The position numbers were made by a program, and so were the translations under genes. The notes beneath the pieces are model-generated. The model did not search any database. It was not told the origin of the DNA and was given only the letters and a program-made list of their open reading frames with translations. Of a stretch of 64,000 bases of DNA, positions 5,613 to 54,964 are shown in pieces. The DNA comes from Flavobacterium sp. CECT 9288 (GTDB taxonomy: Bacteria > Bacteroidota > Bacteroidia > Flavobacteriales > Flavobacteriaceae): assembly GCF_918731615.1 (NCBI RefSeq), contig NZ_OU957226.1:1116001-1180000 (forward strand), given 5' to 3'. Within the stretch, counting starts at the first letter, position 1. The number at the start of each line of letters is the position of its first letter.

Positions 5613-6560
5613 TTATATTCCGAAGCTTCTTCTTGCTCCGCCAGAAACGAATAAAGCAGCCATTCTAGCTTTTTGTCCATTACTAAACATGAACATTCCT
5701 CTATCATCAGTGTAGTCCATGTAGTTCATGTACATTTCTAAAGGAGTACCTGTACAAGTACTTCTGTGTCCTGCTGCAGGAACACCATAATTAGGCTCAT
5801 TGTGAGTAGGTGTGTCAGAAACTAAGTCGCTTCCACATGTTGCATCTCCCCAAATGTGACGTAAGTTCAACCAGTGTCCTACTTCATGAGTAGCAGTTCT
5901 TCCTAAGTTAAAAGGAGCAGTTACTGTTCCAGTAGATCCAAATGCATTGTTATCCATAACAACACCATCAGTTGCTGAAGCACCTCCAGGAAATTGAGCA
6001 TAACCTAATACTCCACCACTTAAATTACATGACCACATGTTTAAAACAGTAGTAGGCGTTGTAGGTGCTATTCCAGTTGATGCTCTTTTCATAGCATCAT
6101 TTGTAGTAAAAGATGTTGCTGTTGTAGCTTTTCTAACTACGTTTTGTAATACAAATGAAATTCCAACATTAGCTTTAACTCCAGCAAAGGCTGTTGGAAC
6201 TTGATTAAAGTCAGAATTCAAAGCGTTGAAATCTCTGTTTAACACATCAATTTGAGATTGAATTTGCGCTAATGAAATGTTTTCTGCTGCTGTTCTATAA
6301 ACTACGTTTACAACAACTGGAATTTCTATTTTACCATTCACTAATCTTCCGTTAGTCATGGCGTTTTTAGTAAATTCTTCAATTTTGTTCATTCTTAGTG
6401 CAAGACTAGGATCTGCTTTCATTTGAGCAGCTAAAACTTCTTGAGAAGCACAACCTCTTCTAAGAGTTGCTGAAGCTTCAGGAGCGTTAGTTTCTGTGGT
6501 GTCATTTTGACAAGAAAAAAGCATCATAAATGCTAAAGCAGGTAACATAATTTTTTTCAT
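5613..6560 (-). CDS. M43-family (pappalysin/cytophagalysin) zinc metalloprotease lipoprotein
   Basis: This is a predicted exported metalloprotease of MEROPS family M43. The N terminus MKKIMLPALAFMMLFSC is a lipoprotein signal with the lipid-bearing cysteine at C17. The extended zinc motif HEVGHWLNLRH covers residues 225-235 (HExxHxxxxxH: H225, H229, H235, catalytic E226), and a downstream NYMDY at 279-283 provides the Met-turn. The segment around VVYRTAAENIS at 86-96 is the conserved first strand of the domain. At 315 residues this is a minimal catalytic unit with no C-terminal sorting domain, so it is probably membrane-anchored rather than secreted by type IX. It is monocistronic, with a terminator just downstream and a long AT-rich upstream region. 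Confidence 0.88.
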   Translation of the reverse strand: MKKIMLPALAFMMLFSCQNDTTETNAPEASATLRRGCASQEVLAAQMKADPSLALRMNKIEEFTKNAMTNGRLVNGKIEIPVVVNVVYRTAAENISLAQIQSQIDVLNRDFNALNSDFNQVPTAFAGVKANVGISFVLQNVVRKATTATSFTTNDAMKRASTGIAPTTPTTVLNMWSCNLSGGVLGYAQFPGGASATDGVVMDNNAFGSTGTVTAPFNLGRTATHEVGHWLNLRHIWGDATCGSDLVSDTPTHNEPNYGVPAAGHRSTCTGTPLEMYMNYMDYTDDRGMFMFSNGQKARMAALFVSGGARRSFGI

Positions 6561-42266: not shown

Positions 42267-43706
42267 TTAGTGTCCTCCAGAAAGTTTTTTATCAAAATCA
42301 ATACCTTGAGCTCTTAAAATTCCACTTACTTTCCAAGCATAAAAAGCTAGATAAGCAAAGCATAAAATACCAATGATATAACTTTGTTGGATTCCAATTC
42401 CTTCAGCAACTTTTCCTTGTAAAACACTGATAAAACCACCACCCATAATCATCATAATTAAGAAACTACTTCCTTGACTAGTGTTTTTTCCAAGTCCACT
42501 TACCGCTAGGGTAAAAATACAAGGCCATAATGTACTGCAAAATAATCCAACACTCGTGAATGCATATACACTTATCATTCCGCTAGTTGACATTCCTATT
42601 GCTGTGGCAATAATTCCTAAAGTTGAAAATATTAATAACATTCGGGCTGGATTTCCTTTACTAGCCATATCAGCTGCAATTAGAACCAAAATCACTAATC
42701 CGTAAACATAAAATGGAGTCAAATCATGATTTGCAATAGCATTAACTCCTAAGAACACACCGAAAGCTAAATAAGGAGCAATGAATCGTAATATTCTTTG
42801 CAAACTCATATCATTTGTAAACGCCTCTACCGCACCGGTCCAACGACCAATCATTAAACTAGCCCAATACAGTGATATATATGGAGCTACATCTTTTGTT
42901 AGGAATCCTAATTTACTTTCCATGTAAGCAGGTAAATTACTAGCAGTAGAAACTTCAACGCCAACATACAAGAAAATTGCAATCATACCCATTACTAATT
43001 GAGGGTATTGCAAAGCCGATTTTTTTGCAGGAACACCATCGTGCGCTTCTGTTTCTTCAACTAAAGCTGGTTTGTCTGGCAATGAAGAAAATTTTAAAAG
43101 GATAGCAACAAGTAAAAATGCAACACCTAAAACCAAATAAGGAATTTTGACGCTTTCTATACTTGCGCTTGTATTGGCATTAGCACTTGATCCAAAAATG
43201 GCAAAACTAACGATAAGTGGACCAATAGTAGTTCCAAAATTATTAATTCCTCCAGCTAATGTTAGGCGCTGAGAACCTGTAGATATTGGGCCTAAGGCAA
43301 TTGCAAGTGGGTTAGCAACAGTTTGCTGCAAAGAAAAGCCTAAACCTACAATGAAAAGCCCAGCAAGCATTAAAGTAAATGATCCAGTATTAGCAGCTGG
43401 ATAAAATAGAAGTGTTCCTAAAGCTGAGATTAATAGTCCCAATGAAAGACCATTTTTATAGCCAATTTTATTCACTAAATCTTCTTTAAGTACAACTGAA
43501 ACCCCCATATATATTAAAGATCCAACAGTGTATGCAATGTAAAATGCAAAAGCTACTAATTGACTTTCGCCTTGAGAAAGATTAAATGCGGTTTTAAAAA
43601 CTGGGATTAAAATGTCATTACTTGCAGCGACAAATCCCCAAAAGAAGAAGACGGTTACTAGAGGAATAAATTGCCCCCAATTGGTTTTTGAATTTTCAGA
43701 ATTCAT
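42267..43706 (-). CDS. MFS sugar transporter, FucP/NagP-like, probable GlcNAc importer
   Basis: This 479-residue major facilitator protein has about 12 transmembrane helices. The N-terminal sequence FFFWGFVAASNDILIPVFK is the FucP-type substrate-site helix, and LQQTVANPLAIALGP and GGINNFGTTIGP are typical of the FucP/NagP branch. A short hydrophilic loop sits between the two halves (about 210-225). Adjacent genes for GH20, NagB, SusCD and a two-component pair point to GlcNAc as substrate. Paired 9-bp boxes with 21-bp spacing lie upstream at 43816-43845, as at susC and nagB. Fucose or glucose remain alternatives. Confidence 0.85.
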   Translation of the reverse strand: MNSENSKTNWGQFIPLVTVFFFWGFVAASNDILIPVFKTAFNLSQGESQLVAFAFYIAYTVGSLIYMGVSVVLKEDLVNKIGYKNGLSLGLLISALGTLLFYPAANTGSFTLMLAGLFIVGLGFSLQQTVANPLAIALGPISTGSQRLTLAGGINNFGTTIGPLIVSFAIFGSSANANTSASIESVKIPYLVLGVAFLLVAILLKFSSLPDKPALVEETEAHDGVPAKKSALQYPQLVMGMIAIFLYVGVEVSTASNLPAYMESKLGFLTKDVAPYISLYWASLMIGRWTGAVEAFTNDMSLQRILRFIAPYLAFGVFLGVNAIANHDLTPFYVYGLVILVLIAADMASKGNPARMLLIFSTLGIIATAIGMSTSGMISVYAFTSVGLFCSTLWPCIFTLAVSGLGKNTSQGSSFLIMMIMGGGFISVLQGKVAEGIGIQQSYIIGILCFAYLAFYAWKVSGILRAQGIDFDKKLSGGH

Positions 43707-43815
43707 GATTTAGTTTAATTAATAGGTTAGTAAAATAATTCTTGCTGCAATAGGGTAAATGTATTTCTTAACCAACATAAAAAAAAATTATTTCTAATAA
43801 ATTTCGTTAGTTTTA

Positions 43816-43845
43816 AACCAACAACCAGTTTTATTCAACAAAAGA
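43816..43845 (-). promoter_or_regulatory. Paired 9-bp boxes upstream of the transporter gene, possible LytTR site
   Basis: On the minus strand TCTTTTGTT (43845-43837) and TTGTTGGTT (43824-43816) start exactly 21 bp apart. The second fits YYGTTNGTW fully and the first misses one position. The same arrangement occurs upstream of susC and nagB. Confidence 0.45.
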
Positions 43846-43874
43846 CTTTTTTGTAATATGGAAAGTTAAGGGAA

Positions 43875-44582
43875 TTAATCTAAAATTTTACTTTTCACTT
43901 CTTTACTATAATTTCTGCCTATAGGTATGGTATAGGAAGCTATTTGTATTCTATTTCCCTCGATTGTTTTTACTTTATCCAAAGCGATGGAGTAAGATTT
44001 ATGAATACGAATGAAGCGATCTTCTGGAAGCTCCTCGGTTAAAGAAGAAAGTGATTTATGTGTAATATAGGTTTTTTCGGCGGTAACTACTTTGATGTAT
44101 TCTTTCATTCCTTCAATGAATAGAATTTCATCTATATTAATTTTTACCATTTTTTTATCTACTTTGATAAAAATATACGGATCTACACGATGATTCTCTT
44201 GTTTTGTAGCTAATCGGTTTTGAAATTCACCAGTTATTTTTGATATACATTTTATAAATCGAGGCAGCGGGATAGGTTTAACTAGATAATCAAGAACATC
44301 TAAATCATAGCTTTCAGCAGCAAATTCTCGGAAGGCGGTTGTGATAATAATCTTGGTATTCGAATTATTTTTATACAATTGTATCAACTCAAAACCAGAC
44401 ATGAGAGGCATATTTATATCTAAAAATAGTGCATCTGTTGTGTTGTTATTCAAAAAATCTAAGGCTTCAATAGAATTATTAAAAGTTGCTATAACTTCAA
44501 ATTCTGGAAAGTTTTGGAAATAGTTGATTAATACTTTAATAGCCAATGGTTCATCATCAATCAATACACACTTAATCTTCAT
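43875..44582 (-). CDS. LytTR-family response regulator
   Basis: This 235-residue regulator has an N-terminal receiver domain (phosphoacceptor D55 in FLDINMPLMSG, acidic pair D9/D10, and lysine in LVKPIP) and a C-terminal LytTR DNA-binding domain (about 135-233, with EILFIEGMKEYIKVV and RIHKSYSIALDKV). Its start overlaps the end of the sensor kinase gene by 11 bp, so the two are translationally coupled. LytTR proteins bind pairs of ~9-bp direct repeats spaced about two helical turns apart. Such pairs occur upstream of the transporter, susC and nagB genes in this locus, making them its likely targets. Confidence 0.92.
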   Translation of the reverse strand: MKIKCVLIDDEPLAIKVLINYFQNFPEFEVIATFNNSIEALDFLNNNTTDALFLDINMPLMSGFELIQLYKNNSNTKIIITTAFREFAAESYDLDVLDYLVKPIPLPRFIKCISKITGEFQNRLATKQENHRVDPYIFIKVDKKMVKINIDEILFIEGMKEYIKVVTAEKTYITHKSLSSLTEELPEDRFIRIHKSYSIALDKVKTIEGNRIQIASYTIPIGRNYSKEVKSKILD

Positions 44583-45624
44583 TGTTTATAGGTATTTGTA
44601 AACGAATTATATAGAAATTAAATTTGATTTGATGGTTTAACTGATAATTGTCTTTAAATAGTAATTTTAATCGTTCTTTAGTATTAGTTAGACCAATCCC
44701 ATTTTTAGAGTTTTCATTTTGTGAAAGTACAAAATTATTTATTATTTCAAAATCGAGTGTTTTATTGTTGATGATTTTGCAGTTAATCTTTATGGTCAAG
44801 TCCTTGTTATTTATTCCGCCGTGTTTGAACGCATTTTCTATCAATGAGATTAATAATAAAGGAGGAACATGTATATTGTCAAAATTAGATTCTAGATTAA
44901 TAAAAACAGTAGCATTTTCAAATCGTAATTTTTCAATTTCAATGTAATTCTGTATGTAGTCAAATTCTTTTAGTAATGGAGCAAACTTGGCTCCTTCAAT
45001 ATCATAAAGAACATATTCCATCAAATGGGAAAGTTTTATAATTACATCAGGCACTTTTTTTGAGTCTTCTAAGGAAAGTGCATAAAGATTATTTAAGGTA
45101 TTAAAGAAAAAATGAGGTTGGATTTGTGTTTTTAAGTATTCAAGCTTTATCTTATATTGATTCTCTCTAAGAGTTCTATTGTTTTCTCTTTCTTTTAGCC
45201 AAGTTAATGTCAGGTAGATTGAGGACGCCATTGCTAGAACATATAATTCACCAATACAAACAGCAAGAATATGATTGATTTCAAAAGGCTGATAGTCTCT
45301 ATTGGCTTCAGGCCAAATGTTTTTTGAAATAATATAATAGGTTAATCCCGTTTTTAAAATATAAATGCATCCTAAACTAGTTAATAGAGCAAATGTATAA
45401 TGAAGGTATTTTGATCTTAAAACAAATCTTGGTACTAAAACAAATAAATTAAAATAGACTAAAGGTATGTGTAATGCAAATTCGATTAGATTTGACTTAA
45501 ATGAATATTCATAGTCATTGAAGTAGGCACCCCATCTTAAAAAATTCAATAAAAAATACAATCCCCAAAACCAAAAATGATTTTGAATTTTGATTTCAAA
45601 TTGCATATCTTTTATTTTATCCAT
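44572..45624 (-). CDS. LytS/YehU-type sensor histidine kinase
   Basis: This 350-residue membrane sensor has four transmembrane helices in the first half (about 17-33, 47-65, 75-95, 118-142), then a His_kinase domain with phosphoacceptor H171 in QIQPHFFFNTLNNL and an ATPase domain with LIENAFKHG (N box) and NGIGLTNTKERL (G box). There is no periplasmic sensory domain, so the signal is probably sensed in the membrane or through a partner. It is the first gene of the pair with the LytTR regulator and is divergent from susC. Confidence 0.92.
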   Translation of the reverse strand: MDKIKDMQFEIKIQNHFWFWGLYFLLNFLRWGAYFNDYEYSFKSNLIEFALHIPLVYFNLFVLVPRFVLRSKYLHYTFALLTSLGCIYILKTGLTYYIISKNIWPEANRDYQPFEINHILAVCIGELYVLAMASSIYLTLTWLKERENNRTLRENQYKIKLEYLKTQIQPHFFFNTLNNLYALSLEDSKKVPDVIIKLSHLMEYVLYDIEGAKFAPLLKEFDYIQNYIEIEKLRFENATVFINLESNFDNIHVPPLLLISLIENAFKHGGINNKDLTIKINCKIINNKTLDFEIINNFVLSQNENSKNGIGLTNTKERLKLLFKDNYQLNHQIKFNFYIIRLQIPINNED

Positions 45625-45764
45625 GGTTTTGGAGCCTATTAGGAAATAAGTTTACAAGTGATTCTTGTATTTGATTTTGCAACTTTAATCATTTTGTCAA
45701 TAAAAACGGGACTTTTTAAAGAAAAAAAAGTTTAATTATTAATATATAAATGTAATGAAAATTA

Positions 45765-45776
45765 GAAAACGTTTTC
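45765..45776. promoter_or_regulatory. 12-bp perfect palindrome upstream of susC
   Basis: GAAAACGTTTTC is a perfect palindrome with a central CG, the usual form of LacI/GalR-type operators. It lies in the divergent region between the sensor kinase and susC. No LacI-family gene is in the window. Confidence 0.4.
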
Positions 45777-45803
45777 GTGTAACATATTATTGAACAAAAG
45801 ATG

Positions 45804-45833
45804 TCGTTCGTTTAAAAAACGATACTGTTGGTA
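45804..45833 (+). promoter_or_regulatory. Paired 9-bp boxes upstream of susC, possible LytTR site
   Basis: TCGTTCGTT (45804-45812) and CTGTTGGTA (45825-45833) start 21 bp apart and both fit YYGTTNGTW. The first is preceded by ATG, so that ATGTCGTT is shared exactly with the nagB site. The second box ends 69 bp before the susC ATG. An inverted repeat TCGTTT-AAA-AAACGA overlaps the first box. Confidence 0.5.
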
Positions 45834-45901
45834 TAATTTATTTTTTTTAACAAAATCTTAAAGATAATTTTATATTATAACTAACTAATACATTAAAAAA
45901 A

Positions 45902-48900
45902 ATGAAACAAATTTTATTAATCGTTATGATTATTTTTGCTTCGCAACTTTCATTTGCGCAAGTAAAAACGCTCAAAGGAACGGTAACTGATGCCAGCGGT
46001 ATGCCAATTCCTTCTGCAAATGTTCAAGTACAGGGAGAATCAAAAGGAGCAACCACTGATTTTGATGGTAATTTTGCTATCCAAGTAAGTGTGGGTAAAA
46101 CTTTAGTAGTATCTTATTTAGGATACGAAACGAAATCGGTAGTAGTTGGTGATGCAGATACTATTAAAATAATATTAAACAGTGGTGCTACAACAGCATT
46201 AACCGAAGTTGTAGTAACTTCATTAGGGATTAAGAAAACAAGAAAATCTCTTACTTATGCTGCTCAAGAGTTAAAAGGTGAAGAGTTAACAAGAGTAAAA
46301 GACGCGAACATTATTAATACTATAGCAGGTAAAATTGCAGGTGTTGCTGTAACAAGAAGCTCTGGGGGTACTGGAGGATCTACTAAAGTAGTTATTCGTG
46401 GTAATTCTTCTGTAAGCAATAACCAGCCATTATATGTTATAGATGGTATTCCTTTATATAATGGATCAGCAGGACAACCAAACAATGCTTTTGGGGATAC
46501 AGCTGGTGGAAACCGTGATGGAGGAGATGTAGTTTCTTTGATTAATCCAGATGATTATGAAGGAATGACTGTTTTGAAAGGTGCAGCAGCATCGGTTTTA
46601 TATGGTTCGCAAGGGGCAAATGGCGTAGTATTATTGTCTTCTAAAAAAGCAAAACAAGGTAAAGCTCAATTAAAAGCTTCTTCTGTATCCACATTTGAAT
46701 CAGCTGCTTACTTACCAAAATTCCAAAATGATTATGTTGCGGTTGCAGGTGGTGAAGAAACTTGGGGAGCAAAGCAAAAAGTAAATGATCACGTAAAAGA
46801 TTTTTTTGAAACTGGAAGTACTCAAATTTCTTCAGTTAATTTCACAACAGCTTCTGATGTGGCATCTACTTCATTATCTTATGCAAATACAACAGGATCT
46901 GGGATTATTCCTGGAAATGGTTTGAAACAAAATAATTTTGGTTTCCGTCAATCAGGTAAATTATCGGATAAATTAACTGTTGCTGCAAATGCAAATTATA
47001 CTACACGTACTGTAAATAATAGACCAGTAAATGGTTTGTACTTTAACCCATTGACGGGTGTATATTTAATGCCAAGAGGGAATGACTTTAACGAATATAA
47101 AAAGAATTTCGAAGTTTTTAACCCTACTAGAAATATGAATGTTCAAAATTGGATGACTAATAGAGATATTATGCAAAATCCTTTTTGGGGAATCAACAGA
47201 AACAAATCTGAAGATACGAATCAATTTTTTAATGGAAACTTAGCTTTAGATTATAAAGCAACAGATTGGTTATCTATTGCCACTAGATATAGTTATAATA
47301 GAGTTGAAAGTGGATTTACAAAAGAAGTTTTTGCTACTACTCAAGGTACATTATCTCATATAAATGGTAGATATATTGACATCAATAACTTGAGTACTCA
47401 ACGTTATGCTGATTTAATCGCTACGATTAATACTAAATTTAATGATGATTTTAGTTTTAATGCTAATATCGGTTCAAGTATCACGAATACTTTGGCTAAT
47501 AAAAGAACAACATTAGATTCTGGAATTGGTGGAGGTTTACAAATTGCGAACTGGTTTACTTTGGGTAATTTTGTAAATAACGCATTAAACTTACAAACTG
47601 TTGATTCAAGAAAAGAAGTTCAATCAGTTTTTGCAGCAACAACTTTTGGATACAAAGAGATGTTATTCTTAGACTTGGCAGCAAGAAATGACTGGTCTTC
47701 TACATTGGTTAATACTGACAACACAGGATTTTTCTACCCATCTGTTGGGGTAACAGCCATTCTTAGTGAAATGGTAAAAATGCCAGAATTTGTAAATTAC
47801 GGTAAAGTGCGTGCTACTTATGCTCAAGTAGGTAATGATATTTTTCCATTCGTAACTTCTCCAACGTATGGTTTTACAATTGAAGGTAATAAGCCAGCTA
47901 CAGTTGCTCCACAACCAGGAACTTCTTTGCGTCCTGAGTTAAAATCTGAGATTGAAATCGGTACAGAATGGAGAATGTTTGACAACCGTTTAGGATTTGA
48001 ATTGTCTTACTATAATTCAAACACTAAACACCAATATTTACAAGTTTTAGCGCCACCAACAAATCCATTAGGAGTTAAATATTACGGAATTAATGCAGGA
48101 AGTATTTCTAACAAAGGTTTTGAAGCTGTAGTAACCGGTAAAATTATTAAAGGAAATAAATTCTCTTGGGATGCAACAGTAAATTATTCTAAAAATATAA
48201 ATAAAGTAGAAGAAATTCCAGCAGAATTAGGAGGAAAAGTAATCTTGACAGAAGCTGGAGTAAATAACTACAGATATGTATTACAGCAAGGTAAACCATT
48301 TGGTGTTATTGAAGGAGTAAATATTAAGAGAGATGCACAAGGTAAAGTATTATTGAATGCTGACGGAACTATTCAAAAAACAGAATTTGAAGAAGTAGGA
48401 AACTCTAATCCAGATTTTATGTTAGGTTTTTCTAACTCATTCAAAGTAGGTTCGTTTTTTGCGAATGTATTAGTTGATGCAAGATTTGGTGGAGAAGTAA
48501 TGAGCTTGACAGAAGCTACAAACGATGAGTTTGGTGTTTCGAAAGCAACTGGTGATGCAAGAAATGCAGGAGGTGTAGCTATTAATGCAGTTTATCCAAA
48601 CGGAAATGCTTATTCAGGTAAATATCCTGCAGAAAGTTATTATAAACAAGTTGGTGGTAGAGCTGGAGCAACAGGAGAATATGTATATGATGCTACAAAT
48701 GTAAGTTTAAGAGAGGTTTCTGTTGGATATACATTCAACACTAAAAAAATACCATTTTTACAATCAGCAAGCTTGTCTTTAATTGCTAGAAACTTAGGAT
48801 TTATCTACAAAGATGCTCCTTTTGACCCAAACATTTCATTAAGTACTGGTGAAGGCTTACAAGGGATAGATGTTTATGGAATGCCATCTACAAGAAGTAT

Positions 48901-48928
48901 CGGTCTTAACTTAAACGTAACTTTCTAA
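45902..48928 (+). CDS. SusC/RagA-family TonB-dependent outer-membrane receptor
   Basis: This 1008-residue oligosaccharide importer works with a SusD lipoprotein. A signal peptide (1-19) is followed by a carboxypeptidase-regulatory-like domain (about 23-95, starting [16 protein letters not shown]). Then come the SusC linker with [19 protein letters not shown], the plug (about 115-240, with [17 protein letters not shown] and [18 protein letters not shown]), and a 22-strand barrel ending in LNLNVTF with terminal phenylalanine. susD follows after 10 bp. Context (GH20, NagB, transporter) suggests uptake of GlcNAc-containing oligosaccharides such as chitin or peptidoglycan fragments. Confidence 0.95.
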
Positions 48929-48938
48929 TTAAAAAAAC

Positions 48939-50519
48939 ATGAAATTAAATACAATTAAAAAAACAGCTATTTGTGTTTCCTTACTCGCAGCAGTAAGTTG
49001 CACAAACAATTTTGAAGATATTAATACCAATCCAACGGGTATTACTGAGGCGCAATATGAACAAGATTTTAATAATATCAAAGGTGCTTTTGCTCCTATG
49101 TTTAATAACATTATTGTCTTGACTCCAGAATGGAAATACCAAGTGCAACAAGGGCTTCAAGGTGATATTTGGTCTGGTTATATGGCTACAGGTACTGCTT
49201 TTAGAGGAGGAACCAATAACACTACTTATGATTTAGTTGATGGATGGAATGGTTTTGCATGGGGAGCTGCTTATGGTGATGTAATGTATAATGCCTATTC
49301 TGTTGAACAAAAAGCCAAAGGGAAATACGATCAATTTTATGCTTTAGCTTTGATTTTGAAAGTGGAAGGAATGCATAGAGTTACAGATACCTATGGACCA
49401 ATAGTTTATTCAAAATTTGGAACTACTGATAAAACAATTGGATATGACTCACAGGAAGAAGTATACAATTTGATGTTCAAAGAATTGGATTTTGCAGTTA
49501 CTGATTTGACAAAAAGAGTAGATGCAGCAGAACCCTCAACTTTTACAACTACAGATCTATCAGGATATAAAGGTGATTACAAGAAATGGGTAAAATTTGC
49601 AAACTCTTTGCGTTTGCGTTTAGCCATGCGTATTGTAAAGAAAAATCCAACTTTAGCTAAAGCTGAAGCTGAAAAAGCCATTGCTCAAAAATTTGGAGTA
49701 ATGACTACAAATGATGATTTATTTAAAATTGTTTCTCCAAATTTCAACAACCCAATAGCTACCATTAGTGCTGCTTGGGGTGACGTCAGAATGTCAGCAG
49801 ATATGGAGTCAATTATGGGAGGATATCAAGATCCAAGACTTCCTGTGTTTTTCAAAACATCTGCGCAGTTTCCGGGGCAATACAAAGGTGTTAGAACAGG
49901 TATTGAGATAGCTGCTAAAGCTGATCACGTAGATTTTTCTGAAATTGGACCAATAGTTAATTCTAAAGAAATTGTATTAATGACAACTGCCGAAGTTTAT
50001 TTGTTAAGAGCTGAAGGAGCATTAAGAGGATGGAATATGGGTGGAACAGCTCAAAGTTTGTATGAATTAGGAATCACAAACTCTTTTGCTCAACACGGAG
50101 TTTCTGGTGTAGCTGCTTACATCGCTGATAATGCTAAAACAGCCAAAGATTATGTAGATCCAAATTTTCCAGTAAATAATGGAGCTGCACTAAATACTGT
50201 AACTGTTGCTTGGGATGCAGCCGCCACTAATGAAGTGAAATTGCAAAAAATTATAACTCAAAAATGGATTGCAGGTTTCCCAGAAGGACAAGAAGCATGG
50301 TCAGAATACAGAAGAACTGGATATCCTAAATTACTTCCAGTACTTAAAAATACTAGTGGTGGTAAAATATCTTCTGCTCTAGGTGTTCGTAGAGTGAACT
50401 TCGTTCAATCTGAAAAAGATGGGAATCCAGGTGGTGTAGCTACTGGTTTAGCTAAACTAGGTGGGCCAGATAATGGAGGAACAAGATTGTGGTGGGATAC
50501 TACTGGATCTAACTTCTAG
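48939..50519 (+). CDS. SusD/RagB-family nutrient-binding lipoprotein
   Basis: This surface lipoprotein caps the SusC barrel and binds the oligosaccharide. The 526 residues begin with a lipoprotein signal and lipidated C21 (LLAAVSCTNNFEDINTNPTG). The helical TPR-like scaffold and sequence character (LTPEWKYQVQQGLQGDIWSG, then EVYLLRAEGALRGWNMGG) point to the SusD-like_2 branch (PF12771-type) rather than the classical SusD. It is 10 bp after susC and in the same transcript. A hairpin follows at 50538. Confidence 0.93.
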   Translation: MKLNTIKKTAICVSLLAAVSCTNNFEDINTNPTGITEAQYEQDFNNIKGAFAPMFNNIIVLTPEWKYQVQQGLQGDIWSGYMATGTAFRGGTNNTTYDLVDGWNGFAWGAAYGDVMYNAYSVEQKAKGKYDQFYALALILKVEGMHRVTDTYGPIVYSKFGTTDKTIGYDSQEEVYNLMFKELDFAVTDLTKRVDAAEPSTFTTTDLSGYKGDYKKWVKFANSLRLRLAMRIVKKNPTLAKAEAEKAIAQKFGVMTTNDDLFKIVSPNFNNPIATISAAWGDVRMSADMESIMGGYQDPRLPVFFKTSAQFPGQYKGVRTGIEIAAKADHVDFSEIGPIVNSKEIVLMTTAEVYLLRAEGALRGWNMGGTAQSLYELGITNSFAQHGVSGVAAYIADNAKTAKDYVDPNFPVNNGAALNTVTVAWDAAATNEVKLQKIITQKWIAGFPEGQEAWSEYRRTGYPKLLPVLKNTSGGKISSALGVRRVNFVQSEKDGNPGGVATGLAKLGGPDNGGTRLWWDTTGSNF

Positions 50520-50537
50520 TTTCTAGTATATAGTTAA

Positions 50538-50592
50538 TAGTCCTTAGTGATTTGTTTTTGGCTTTATGCTAAGGAATAATTACTAAGGACTA
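50538..50592 (+). terminator. Hairpin downstream of susD
   Basis: TAGTCCTTAGT (50538-50548) pairs perfectly with ACTAAGGACTA (50582-50592) over 11 bp with a 33-nt loop that contains a third partial copy (CTAAGGA). There is no T run, so it may stabilise the susCD message rather than terminate it. Confidence 0.5.
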
Positions 50593-50638
50593 ATAGCTAA
50601 ATTTATTGACTAAATAACGCTTTATTGGTTAAACAATG

Positions 50639-50668
50639 TCGTTGGTATACAAACTCTGACCGTTTGTT
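50639..50668 (+). promoter_or_regulatory. Paired 9-bp boxes upstream of nagB, possible LytTR site
   Basis: TCGTTGGTA (50639-50647) and CCGTTTGTT (50660-50668) start 21 bp apart and both fit YYGTTNGTW. ATGTCGTT at 50636-50643 is identical to the susC site. A T-rich tract follows, as at susC. Confidence 0.5.
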
Positions 50669-50858
50669 TTTTTTATTTTTTTGCTCCAAGTAATACTCCT
50701 AAATTTGAAATAAAGTAAAAAAAAGATTTCATTTTTTTAATACTTTAATTGTCATTAATTATTTAAATGTAAATAATATAAAAATCAAATATTGTTTTGA
50801 AAACAAAGGAATTATAAAGTGAAAAATAAAATTAGCAAGAATATAAAATTACAATACA

Positions 50859-52796
50859 ATGAAAAATACTTTAGACATAAAACCGGATATTAGCTACAAA
50901 AGTGCTGGTAAATTTGAAGAAACTCGATTTGAAAAAATTCACAACGAAATTTTTAAAAACTCAGTAGAGGCTTCAAAAATTGTTGCTGAAGAGATTGCTA
51001 CTTTAATTCGATCCAAACAAGAAGAAAATAAGAATTGTGTTTTAGGTCTGGCTACTGGTTCTTCTCCAATAAAAGTATATGAAGAATTGGTTCGTATGCA
51101 TAAAGAAGAAGGCTTAAGCTTTAAAAATGTGATTACATTCAATTTGGATGAATATTATCCAATGAATAAAGAAAGCAAGCAGAGCTATCATTATTTTATG
51201 CATCAGCATTTATTTAATCATATAGACATTCATCCTGATAATGTTCATATTCCTGACGGAACAGTGGCTATTGAAGAATTGAATCAATATTGTATTGATT
51301 ATGAAATGAACATTAAAAATGCAGGAGGCCTTGATTTTCAATTATTAGGAATAGGTCGTACGGGACACGTAGGATTTAATGAGCCAGGTTCACACATCAA
51401 TTCAGGTACTCGAATCATTACTTTAGATCATATTACTAGAGTAGATGCTTCTTCTGATTTTAATGGAATTAATAATGTACCCAAACGCGCCATTACAATG
51501 GGAGTTTCTACCATTATGCGTTCTAAACGAATTGTTTTGATGGCTTGGGGACAAAATAAAGCTGATATCATCAAAAGAACGATTCAAGGTGAGATTAGCT
51601 CTGAAGTACCCGCTACTTTTTTGCAAAATCATCCAAACGCTACATTTGTTTTGGATCAATCAGCGGCTTCGTCTCTAACTCGTTTTGAAACACCATGGTT
51701 GGTAGGTGAGTGCATTTGGAACCAAGAATTAAAAAGCAAAGCAATAGTTTGGTTGTGTCAAAAAACAAATCAGTCTATATTAAAACTTACCGATAGAGAT
51801 TACAATAACAACGGTATGTCTGACTTGTTAGCTCAAGAAGGTTCTGCTTATGATTTGAATATTAATATGTTCAATGTGTTGCAACATACCATTACGGGTT
51901 GGCCTGGAGGAAAACCTAATGCCGATGATGCACACCGACCAGAAAGAGCTAATCCTGCTAAAAAGAGAGTGATTCTATTTAGTCCTCATCCAGATGATGA
52001 TGTGATTTCTATGGGAGGAACTTTTGCAAAATTAATCAAGCAAGGACATGAGGTTCATGTAGTGTATCAAACTTCTGGAAACATTGCTGTAACAGATGAT
52101 GAAGCTTTAAAATTTGCTGAAGTATGTAATGATTTTGTAGGAGAAGATAGTAGTAAAATTAATTTTCAAGCCGTAATTGATTTCTTAAAAAATAAGAACG
52201 ACAATCAAGTTGATTCTCTAGAAGTTAGAAAATTAAAAGGGTTAATTAGAAGAAGAGAATCTTATGCAGCAGTGCGTTACATTGGATTGAAAGATGAAAA
52301 TGTCCACTTTTTAGATTTACCTTTTTACGAAACAGGTCAGATAAAGAAAAATCCGCTTGGATCAGAAGATATTGAAATTGTGGCTGATATTATTGCTAAA
52401 ATTAAACCGCATCAAGTTTTTGCAGCGGGAGATTTAGCTGATCCACACGGTACTCACGAAGTATGTTTGAATGCCATTTTTGCAGCTTTAAAACAATTAA
52501 AAGCTAAACCTTACATGAAAGATTGTTGGTTGTGGTTATATAGAGGCGCTTGGCATGAATGGGATTTACATGAAATTGATATGGCTGTACCGTTGAGTCC
52601 AGATGAAGTATTATTGAAACGACAAGCCATTTTATTCCACCAATCTCAAAAGGATCGTGTGATGTTTCAAGGTAATGACTCGAGAGAATTTTGGGTACGT
52701 GCCGAAGATCGAAATAAAAATACTGCTAAATTATACGATGAATTAGGATTGGCAGAATATGAAGCTATTGAAGCTTTTAAAAGATTTGATTATTAA
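50859..52796 (+). CDS. nagB: Glucosamine-6-phosphate deaminase fused to a PIG-L family deacetylase domain
   Basis: This 645-residue two-domain protein converts glucosamine-6-phosphate to fructose-6-phosphate and ammonia, with an added deacetylase-like domain. NagB domain, residues ~20-290: GLATGSSP (63-70), FNLDEYYPM (94-102), GIGRTGHVGFNEPG (164-177) and the conserved AITMGVSTIM. PIG-L/LmbE domain, residues ~368-640: HPDDD at 377-381 and HGTH at 530-533 give the zinc ligands and catalytic Asp of the family. Ordinary NagB is about 260 residues. Fusions of this length are, from memory, frequent in Bacteroidota. The PIG-L domain might deacetylate GlcNAc-6-phosphate or another GlcNAc compound. 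It stands between susCD and the GH20 gene. Confidence 0.93.
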   Translation: MKNTLDIKPDISYKSAGKFEETRFEKIHNEIFKNSVEASKIVAEEIATLIRSKQEENKNCVLGLATGSSPIKVYEELVRMHKEEGLSFKNVITFNLDEYYPMNKESKQSYHYFMHQHLFNHIDIHPDNVHIPDGTVAIEELNQYCIDYEMNIKNAGGLDFQLLGIGRTGHVGFNEPGSHINSGTRIITLDHITRVDASSDFNGINNVPKRAITMGVSTIMRSKRIVLMAWGQNKADIIKRTIQGEISSEVPATFLQNHPNATFVLDQSAASSLTRFETPWLVGECIWNQELKSKAIVWLCQKTNQSILKLTDRDYNNNGMSDLLAQEGSAYDLNINMFNVLQHTITGWPGGKPNADDAHRPERANPAKKRVILFSPHPDDDVISMGGTFAKLIKQGHEVHVVYQTSGNIAVTDDEALKFAEVCNDFVGEDSSKINFQAVIDFLKNKNDNQVDSLEVRKLKGLIRRRESYAAVRYIGLKDENVHFLDLPFYETGQIKKNPLGSEDIEIVADIIAKIKPHQVFAAGDLADPHGTHEVCLNAIFAALKQLKAKPYMKDCWLWLYRGAWHEWDLHEIDMAVPLSPDEVLLKRQAILFHQSQKDRVMFQGNDSREFWVRAEDRNKNTAKLYDELGLAEYEAIEAFKRFDY

Positions 52797-52894: not shown

Positions 52895-54964
52895 ATGAAA
52901 TACCTTTTTGTACTGTTTTTTATAACATTATCTACAACTGCTCAAGTTGCTAAAGAGTCCTTGAATTTAATGCCTTGGCCTCAAAAAGTAGAACTTAAGT
53001 CAGGAAATTTTGATTTAAAACCTACTTTTAAAGTTAATGTTACAGGGCAACCTAATGAAAGAATCTTTGGAGCGGTTTCTAATTTTTTAAGACGATTAGA
53101 TGGTAGAACGGGCTTGTTTTTTAAGCAAGGTTTTGTGACTTCAACAAATGAATTTCCAGATGCACAATTGCACATTAATTGCACAAAAGCAGGGAAAATT
53201 GGTCTATATAAAGATGAAAGTTATCAATTGACAGTTCAATCGAATGCTATTGTGATCAACGCTTCCTCAGATTTAGGTGCGATGCATGCATTGGAAACTC
53301 TTTTGCAGTTGCTTCAAAACAATGCAACTTCTTTCTATTTTCCAAATGTATCTATAACAGATATGCCCCGTTTTACTTGGCGTGGATTAATGATTGATGT
53401 TGCTAGACATTTTCAACCAGTTGATGTGATTAAAAGAAACTTAGATGCAATGGCTGCTATGAAAATGAATGTTTTTCACTGGCATTTAGTTGACGATCAA
53501 GGTTGGAGGATTGAAATGAAGAAACATAAAGTGCTCACAGATAAAGCATCTGATGGTCTTTTTTATACTCAGGAAGAAATTAAAGGTATCGTAAAATATG
53601 CTGCCGCCAGAGGAATTTTAGTTGTACCTGAAATTGACGTGCCTGGACATGCCTCAGCGATTTTGACTGCCTTTCCAGAAATTGGAAGTAAAGTAATAAC
53701 TGTAAATAAAGGGTCTGCTGAAACAACCCAGAAAGCATCAGGATTAGTAACCTATTCATTAGAAAGAAATGCAGGAATTTTTACGCCAACTTTAGACCCT
53801 TCTAATCCAAAGACGTATCAATTGTTGAGTGAAATTTTTGATGAAGTTTGTCCGTTATTTCCAGGGAAATATTTCCACATTGGAGGTGATGAAAACGAAG
53901 GTAAAGATTGGGATTCGAATCCTAAAATTCAGGAATTCATGAAGAAAAATAAGCTAACCAACAATCATGAGTTACAAACTTATTTTACGATGAAGTTAAT
54001 TCCGATGTTAAAAAAGCATCAAAAAGAATTGATGGGATGGGAAGAAATTATGACCAAAAACATGTCAAAAGAAGCCATAATTCATTCCTGGAAAGGGCCT
54101 AATGAAGGAGTAGCTGCTGGTAGTTCTCTTATTGCTGCTGCTTCTAATGGTTATAAAACAGTATTGTCTAATGGTTTTTATGTAGATTTAGTTCAAGGCG
54201 TTGAAAGTCATTATTTGAATGATCCAATGCCTAAAAACAATACACTATCGTCAGAAGAAAAAGCTAGAATTCTAGGTGGTGAAGCTACAATGTGGAGTGA
54301 ATTGGCTACACCTGAAACCATCGATTCAAGAATTTGGCCTAGAACCGCAGCTATTGCCGAAAGACTTTGGTCTGACGCCAATGTAACGGATTTGGCCAGT
54401 ATGCGAAAAAGATTGAAAAACATTTCTTTTCGATTGGAAGAATTAGGAATTACGCATATTAGAAATAAAGATGTGTTGTTGAGAAATATCAGTAACAATC
54501 AAAATACTGCTGCTTTACAAACATTTTCAGCAGTTTGCGAGCCTCTGAAAATTTATTCCCGTAATGCGGGTGGTACTGAATATCAAATGTATTCTCCCTT
54601 TACTTTGTTTGCTGATGCATGCACACCAGATGCTGAGGATGCTTTAGTTTTTAATGAATTAGTAGCAGATTATATTAAAAGTAAAGAGGTGTTATTAGAA
54701 AAAGAAATTGACTTTTTTTTGAATAAATGGATACAAAATCATAAAGAATTAGAGGGTTTAAGTCAAAATGCTCCATTGGTGCAACCTCTTTTGCCTTTGT
54801 CTAAAGCATTACATGATTTGTCAGAGCAATTACTTTTTAAGTTACAAAAGAAACCCAATTATAATACGTCTCTAGCAAAAGAGTTACTAGAAAAATGCAA
54901 CTCTAAGGCCCATGCAGATGTAGAACTTGCTGTTTTTACAGGTTTAAAGAACTTGGTAGAATAA
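52895..54964 (+). CDS. Beta-N-acetylhexosaminidase, glycoside hydrolase family 20
   Basis: This 689-residue exported enzyme removes terminal GlcNAc (or GalNAc) from oligosaccharides. A signal peptide covers residues 1-16. The small GH20b domain (about 20-155) precedes the catalytic TIM barrel from TWRGLMIDVARHF (161-173), with HWHLVDDQGWR (195-205) and the catalytic pair D332-E333 in FHIGGDENEG. E acts as acid/base and D stabilises the acetamido group in substrate-assisted catalysis. Later come HSWKG and GGEATMWSE. The ~150-residue C-terminal helical region lacks a type IX sorting signal, so the enzyme is likely periplasmic, acting on sugars imported by SusCD. Confidence 0.94.
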   Translation: MKYLFVLFFITLSTTAQVAKESLNLMPWPQKVELKSGNFDLKPTFKVNVTGQPNERIFGAVSNFLRRLDGRTGLFFKQGFVTSTNEFPDAQLHINCTKAGKIGLYKDESYQLTVQSNAIVINASSDLGAMHALETLLQLLQNNATSFYFPNVSITDMPRFTWRGLMIDVARHFQPVDVIKRNLDAMAAMKMNVFHWHLVDDQGWRIEMKKHKVLTDKASDGLFYTQEEIKGIVKYAAARGILVVPEIDVPGHASAILTAFPEIGSKVITVNKGSAETTQKASGLVTYSLERNAGIFTPTLDPSNPKTYQLLSEIFDEVCPLFPGKYFHIGGDENEGKDWDSNPKIQEFMKKNKLTNNHELQTYFTMKLIPMLKKHQKELMGWEEIMTKNMSKEAIIHSWKGPNEGVAAGSSLIAAASNGYKTVLSNGFYVDLVQGVESHYLNDPMPKNNTLSSEEKARILGGEATMWSELATPETIDSRIWPRTAAIAERLWSDANVTDLASMRKRLKNISFRLEELGITHIRNKDVLLRNISNNQNTAALQTFSAVCEPLKIYSRNAGGTEYQMYSPFTLFADACTPDAEDALVFNELVADYIKSKEVLLEKEIDFFLNKWIQNHKELEGLSQNAPLVQPLLPLSKALHDLSEQLLFKLQKKPNYNTSLAKELLEKCNSKAHADVELAVFTGLKNLVE

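Follow-up and report, generated by a model that had tools for sequence, protein, structure and literature searches.

We analyzed a window of 64,000 nt from Flavobacterium sp. CECT 9288 (the whole stretch of DNA under study, positions 1,116,001 to 1,180,000 of contig NZ_OU957226.1) and characterized short direct repeats, spaced 21 bp apart, that lie upstream of three genes of a locus for N-acetylglucosamine (GlcNAc) utilization: susC, nagB and a sugar transporter gene. The repeats are very probably (probability about 0.86) operators of the CusR-type LytTR response regulator that is encoded at the same locus next to its kinase, CusS. A LytTR regulon at this locus had been proposed in a first-pass annotation of the DNA. 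That proposal is strongly supported, since the spacing is fixed, the site is conserved and co-occurs with cusR, it is retained where susCD or the kinase gene is missing, and none was found at nagB genes in a sample of genomes lacking CusR. It needs amending in that the repeated unit exceeds 9 bp in length, the transporter carries a weaker array of a different make-up, and only a minority of nagB genes have a site. From these sequence comparisons, membership of susC in the predicted regulon is well supported in the genus, support for the transporter is good in many species, and support for nagB is moderate in the window species.

Paired boxes fitting YYGTTNGTW had been reported at 45804 and 45825 (plus strand) before susC, at 50639 and 50660 (plus strand) before nagB and, with one mismatch, at 43845 and 43824 (minus strand) before the transporter gene; on inspection all positions and strands proved correct, and the 8-mer common to the susC and nagB sites is ATGTCGTT. 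When the whole 3.70-Mb genome was scanned, the exact pattern YYGTTNGTW-N12-YYGTTNGTW (repeats of 9 nt with 12 nt between) matched twice, at susC and nagB and nowhere outside the locus, and a reversed control pattern matched 0 times. The expectation that such pairs would stand out from random DNA therefore held for the exact pattern but not with up to two mismatches, where matches were at background level (241 vs. 386 for the reversed control). Within the window, the same tolerance gave 8 matches vs. 2.9 expected from shuffles, a count reached by 1 of 100 shuffles. Ten one-mismatch places were among the matches listed for the plus strand of the genome, none of these in the locus. Because one-mismatch pairs are common, the transporter pair alone is not significant in this genome; as a predicted site, its support is its conservation.

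For comparison between genomes, we built a 42-column model from 47 kinase-adjacent susC sites, the window's own among them, and scored each locus with itself left out. The training sites were chosen with the YYGTTNGTW pattern, and their high scores are thus partly built in. Three sites in the window scored above -12, at 45804 (50.6), 43845 (8.5) and 50639 (7.1); with the window's susC site left out of training, the scores were 49.2 for susC, 8.6 for the transporter and 7.2 for nagB. The predicted operators comprise strong units (S, or S1 and S2) and a degenerate unit (D), as follows.

45783..45794, plus strand: susC operator (predicted), degenerate unit D, 21 bp before S1 (unit D search)
45802..45816, plus strand: susC operator (predicted), strong unit S1, TGTCGTTCGTTTAAA (model, left-out score 49.2)
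45823..45838, plus strand: susC operator (predicted), strong unit S2, 21 bp after S1 (model)
50618..50629, plus strand: nagB operator (predicted), unit D, CGCTTTATTGGT, 21 bp before S1 (unit D search)
50637..50651, plus strand: nagB operator (predicted), S1 (model score 7.2)
50658..50672, plus strand: nagB operator (predicted), S2 (model)
43834..43845, minus strand: transporter operator (predicted), unit D, the mismatched box of the first-pass annotation (model, unit D search)
43812..43826, minus strand: transporter operator (predicted), single strong unit S (model, unit D search)

Conservation was assessed across 199 genomes of the genus, 65 of which have a match to the regulator at E <= 1e-58. 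In G223, G249, G271 and G366, the match is only to a paralog of roughly 50-53%, which leaves 61 genomes, counting that of the window, in which a close ortholog is present. We used 60 loci, again counting the window, and excluded G244, where the locus is a fragment at the end of a contig. As the first-pass annotation had anticipated for orthologous loci, the site is conserved before susC, where 71 of 73 upstream regions from the 60 loci scored above 11; among susC genes in loci outside the training set, 9 of 10 did so. The two below the threshold are a 33% homolog in L068 and the susC of L099. Scores above 11 were also obtained for 8 of 55 nagB upstream regions (9 of 55 above 2, the window's included) and for 1 of 58 transporter upstream regions, and for none upstream of the other genes (regulator, 0/60; kinase, 0/58; susD, 0/70; GH20, 0/52). 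In the control, 0 of 2,865,276 reversed-sequence positions scored above 2. Columns that the search pattern had left free are conserved as well, with TG preceding and TAA(A) following each core, indicating a unit of about TGYYGTTNGTWTAAA that is longer than 9 bp. A motif-free repeat search of the genus susC upstream regions returned a spacing of 21 in 35 of 52 (runner-up spacing, 8/52), and the first core starts 95-98 bp upstream of the susC start in 66 of 68 sites within 130 bp (99 or 101 bp in the other two). Among 14 non-redundant sequences, none had a TAnnTTTG -7 box on the downstream side of the array, and hence we make no claim about the promoter. The space available before nagB was considered as a full explanation for the presence of a nagB site and rejected, as L064, L065, L066, L068, L069, L084 and L098 have gaps of roughly 300-390 bp and no site.

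The site also follows the regulator gene. The loose 9-bp pattern proved unsuitable as a genus-wide test: it matches 7-bp tandem repeats (3 x 7 = 21) and was found in 133 of 199 genomes, so a longer pattern was needed. Such tandem repeats (TTGTTAGTTGTTAGT and its kin), which mimic boxes spaced 21 bp apart, occur in G213, G310, G333 (which we take to be F. johnsoniae UW101) and other genomes of the genus. The tight pattern YYGTTNGTWTA-N10-YYGTTNGTWTA occurs in 49 of 199 genomes, namely 48 of the 61 with CusR vs. 1 of the 138 without (Fisher p = 8e-33, relatedness ignored), and the match in that sole CusR-negative genome (G325) is a simple repeat. A cognate LytTR regulator is thus present at the locus and co-occurs with the repeats. 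In a collection of 84,980 species (one genome each), a 35-bp pattern matched at least 120 stretches, and the 80 loci listed were all from Flavobacterium or Flavobacteriaceae. Among the matches listed, which include a record of F. johnsoniae CI04, 76 of 82 sites are no more than 150 bp from a susC start; of the other six, four adjoin cusS on retrieved pieces that contain no susC, one precedes nagB, and one was left unassigned. In a hand-picked sample of 50 of the 138 CusR-negative genomes, eight have nagB homologs (13 loci), none with a site (best score, -22), although four of these loci (L367, L373, L376 and L378) are short and their upstream DNA may be missing.

Loci that have lost genes point in the same direction. 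In L096, the retrieved DNA contains no susCD, and the nagB site is retained. L100 and L104 have no CusS at the locus and keep both the regulator and the site before nagB; a search of their whole genomes for CusS gave no match in G375 and only 29% matches in G215. The conserved phospho-acceptor Asp55 is replaced by Glu in the L104 regulator; Asp is present in 59 of 60 regulators of the genus, that of L100 included. A D53E form of YpdB was employed in binding work on that LytTR protein (PMC4847170). The substitution fits a regulator in L104 that would have become independent of its kinase.

The arrays appear to contain a third, more degenerate unit. Unit D (CNNNTTRTTGAA, up to two mismatches) precedes S1 by exactly 21 bp in 50 of 54 kinase-adjacent susC sites, in 18 of 18 further susC sites and in all eight nagB sites within the script's reach. 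At the transporter it lies 21 bp before a single strong unit in 48 of 54 sites, which identifies the mismatched box of the first-pass annotation as a D unit. Of the ten susC and transporter sites without D at 21 bp, nine lack the unit altogether and the best D of the remaining one is at 38 bp. The D consensus was derived from the very sequences used to count it, and its support is therefore limited to the constant 21-bp phase and the presence of the unit in three gene classes; in reversed upstream DNA, D with up to two mismatches has a background rate of 0.6% per position. The predicted arrangement is thus D-S-S at susC and nagB or D-S at the transporter, with one pitch.

Several observations weigh against assigning the repeats to CusR. 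In the window, the transporter and nagB sites score far below the susC site (8.6 and 7.2 vs. 49.2). Of the 58 upstream regions of transporter genes in the genus, only 19 score above 2, that of G333 scores -15, and the susC of L099 scores -0.9. The genus sequences are related, and the counts are therefore not independent. Thirteen of the 61 CusR-positive genomes lack the tight pattern; eight of these have a site one mismatch from the YYGTTNGTW pattern before susC or nagB, one has a site with two mismatches, one has no site, two (L202 and L364) score above 51 with the model, and one (G244) was not fetched. Furthermore, co-occurrence cannot separate CusR from another protein gained and lost together with the locus.

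The repeats could be sites of another regulator, such as a LacI-type protein or a GlcNAc repressor, that merely adjoin cusSR. A second factor may in fact bind the promoter, since a LacI-like palindrome lies just upstream of many susC arrays. In the window it is the following element.

45765..45776, no strand assigned: perfect palindrome GAAAACGTTTTC, upstream of the susC array, perhaps a LacI-type site (conserved in many susC promoters)

The form AAAACGTTTT occurs within 300 bp of 24 of 54 kinase-adjacent susC genes; 22 more have a bare AACGTT, which is a weak criterion, and eight have neither. It is also present in most of 18 further susC segments. The window's own genome has four copies of GAAAACGTTTTC: that in the window, a second at 2215840, and a further pair in the region separating a TonB receptor gene from a divergent LacI-family gene (L385, 1501-1532). 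The reversed control word is commoner, at 10 places per strand, and the GAAAACGTTTTC word is therefore not rare. However, the palindrome is a separate element, none being seen by eye in the nagB and transporter segments, and direct repeats spaced 21 bp apart suit a LytTR protein better than LacI. The array tracks cusR, and a paralogous LytTR/kinase pair adjoins a 21-bp repeat of a different sequence in 12 of 12 loci (with a pattern written from the same loci). We therefore regard another regulator as an unlikely source of the repeats, and dual control of the locus by CusR and a LacI-type protein as possible.

Conservation of the repeats as part of a promoter or mRNA leader structure, for reasons other than regulator binding, is very unlikely. 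The stretch from the array to the start codon is also conserved, with an almost constant length at susC; however, the array occurs at other distances from nagB (128-302 bp) and the transporter gene (127-152 bp; scores above -2), and is kept when the downstream genes change. Chance or simple tandem repeats, for which one could cite the 7-bp repeats that match the loose pattern in other genomes and the background level of the two-mismatch pattern in the window's own, are extremely unlikely and hardly tenable for susC, since the site is conserved at 71 of 73 susC genes and no control position scored comparably.

For the gene content of the locus, Pfam and NCBIfam gave the following.

42267..43706, minus strand: MFS sugar transporter, GluP/NagP-like (Pfam/NCBIfam)
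43875..44582, minus strand: CusR-type response regulator, receiver plus LytTR (domain search; 77% identity to the G333 regulator)
44572..45624, minus strand: CusS-type membrane histidine kinase, PF06580 (domain search, hydropathy)
45902..48928, plus strand: SusC/RagA TonB receptor (Pfam/NCBIfam)
48939..50519, plus strand: SusD-like lipoprotein (domain search)
50859..52796, plus strand: NagB-type glucosamine-6-phosphate deaminase fused to a PIG-L deacetylase-like domain (Pfam/NCBIfam)
52895..54964, plus strand: GH20 beta-N-acetylhexosaminidase (domain search)

A receiver-LytTR regulator and a PF06580 kinase thus stand next to susCD, nagB, GH20 and an MFS transporter gene, as in a locus under CusSR control. 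A GH18 chitinase of the ChiA kind, which belongs to a complete chitin utilization locus, was not found in this genome, as the whole genome has 0 matches to PF00704 in a search whose control was positive in 6 of 14 genomes and which did not cover GH19. The system here would therefore serve oligosaccharides or GlcNAc released by others. The kinase had been described as a sensor without a periplasmic domain, and hydropathy, the sole basis for this, leaves little room for one: there are three merged hydrophobic stretches (44-71, 76-99 and 113-142) with short loops and, by eye, an aromatic-rich stretch before them. The authors of the F. johnsoniae study predicted periplasmic sensing of oligosaccharides (PMC5127042).

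We propose that CusS in the membrane probably senses a GlcNAc or chito-oligosaccharide signal and would phosphorylate CusR at Asp55. Phosphorylated CusR would then bind half-sites that follow each other head to tail along one DNA face, with a pitch of 21 bp (two turns), upstream of the promoter, and would activate susCD-nagB-GH20, a separate nagB unit in the window species, and the MFS transporter gene. The precision of the site makes the CusSR regulon predictable and testable across Flavobacterium, and the regulator outlives the chitinase, susCD and even the kinase. In five CusR-positive genomes (L183-L187), we observed a strong extra site (41 to 48, position 6001) between a pnp-like gene and an open reading frame (ORF) of about 267 aa that is followed by a 920-aa ORF; in L187, no Pfam family matched the first of these ORFs, and the second is a TonB receptor.

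Regulators of the CusSR type, to which this one belongs, are already known, and the system itself is therefore not new. In F. johnsoniae, CusS/CusR (Fjoh_4563/4564) is the two-component system of the chitin utilization locus; deletion of cusS-cusR there abolished growth on chitin and ChiA was gone, whereas ChiA was normal in the other chitin-defective mutants, including a transporter mutant and with the exception of a chiA mutant (PMC5127042). The words "motif" and "promoter" are absent from the main text of that report, and we found no report of a CusR operator in the open-licence literature. Gene types and gene order (transporter, regulator, kinase, susCD, nagB, GH20) agree between the two loci. 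In G333, the regulator is 77% identical to that of the window, and strong sites (44.6 and 49.3) precede both susC genes. Unlike the F. johnsoniae locus, the window has one susCD pair, no GH18 chitinase match and a separate nagB site.

Beyond the genus, we examined 16 loci of other genera whose regulators show about 50% identity. They were selected from the better hits to the regulator, which matched in 143 of 199 genomes, and are hence not a random sample. Several of their susC upstream regions have, by eye, TGTTGTCTRTRTG and TGTCGTYTATATAA 21 bp apart. With the genus model, six susC sites scored above -2 and one nagB site scored 14.8 (L106); a strict motif-free repeat search gave no spacing peak (15 sequences). 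The paralogous LytTR/kinase pair (L189-L200) has its own repeat facing away from the kinase gene, and the same spacing with different letters is expected of related LytTR proteins. In L189, this pair lies beside an N-glycan-type cluster with GH92, GH130, SSF, asparaginase-type and nagB genes. The LytTR residues of the regulator and its paralog differ at many positions, and no recognition residue could be singled out; a search of the PDB with the whole regulator was of no use for the DNA-binding domain, since the 60 of 171 rows listed were mostly receiver matches (residues 1-130).

Typical LytTR sites have repeats of 9-11 nt with 11-13 nt between them (PMC4847170), a range that includes the 9-nt repeats, 12-nt gap and spacing peak of 21 found here. 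The two direct repeats of E. coli YpdB are likewise 21 bp apart (PMC4847170), and the direct repeats of AgrA lie immediately upstream of promoters (PMC4227749). Unlike the AgrA and YpdB operators, as described in these papers, the window sites differ in sequence and conserve a third, in-phase degenerate unit. The main text of the YpdB paper does not contain the words "third" and "half-site"; in the YpdB oligonucleotide printed there, a further step of 21 bp upstream leads to a 9-of-13 match, which scored best among 16 offsets tried. We suggest, tentatively and with more doubt than confidence, that CusR may act on a three-unit, in-phase, head-to-tail chain instead of a simple pair, in which the number of strong units sets promoter output, that a third unit may have been overlooked in other LytTR sites such as that of E. 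coli yhjX, and that loss of the kinase may have been bypassed naturally by an Asp-to-Glu change in the regulator. Taken together, the repeats are best described as a well-supported predicted operator for a regulator that is already known, perhaps in a three-unit variant, and they offer a clear case of how LytTR regulators serving polysaccharide loci in Bacteroidota would read DNA.

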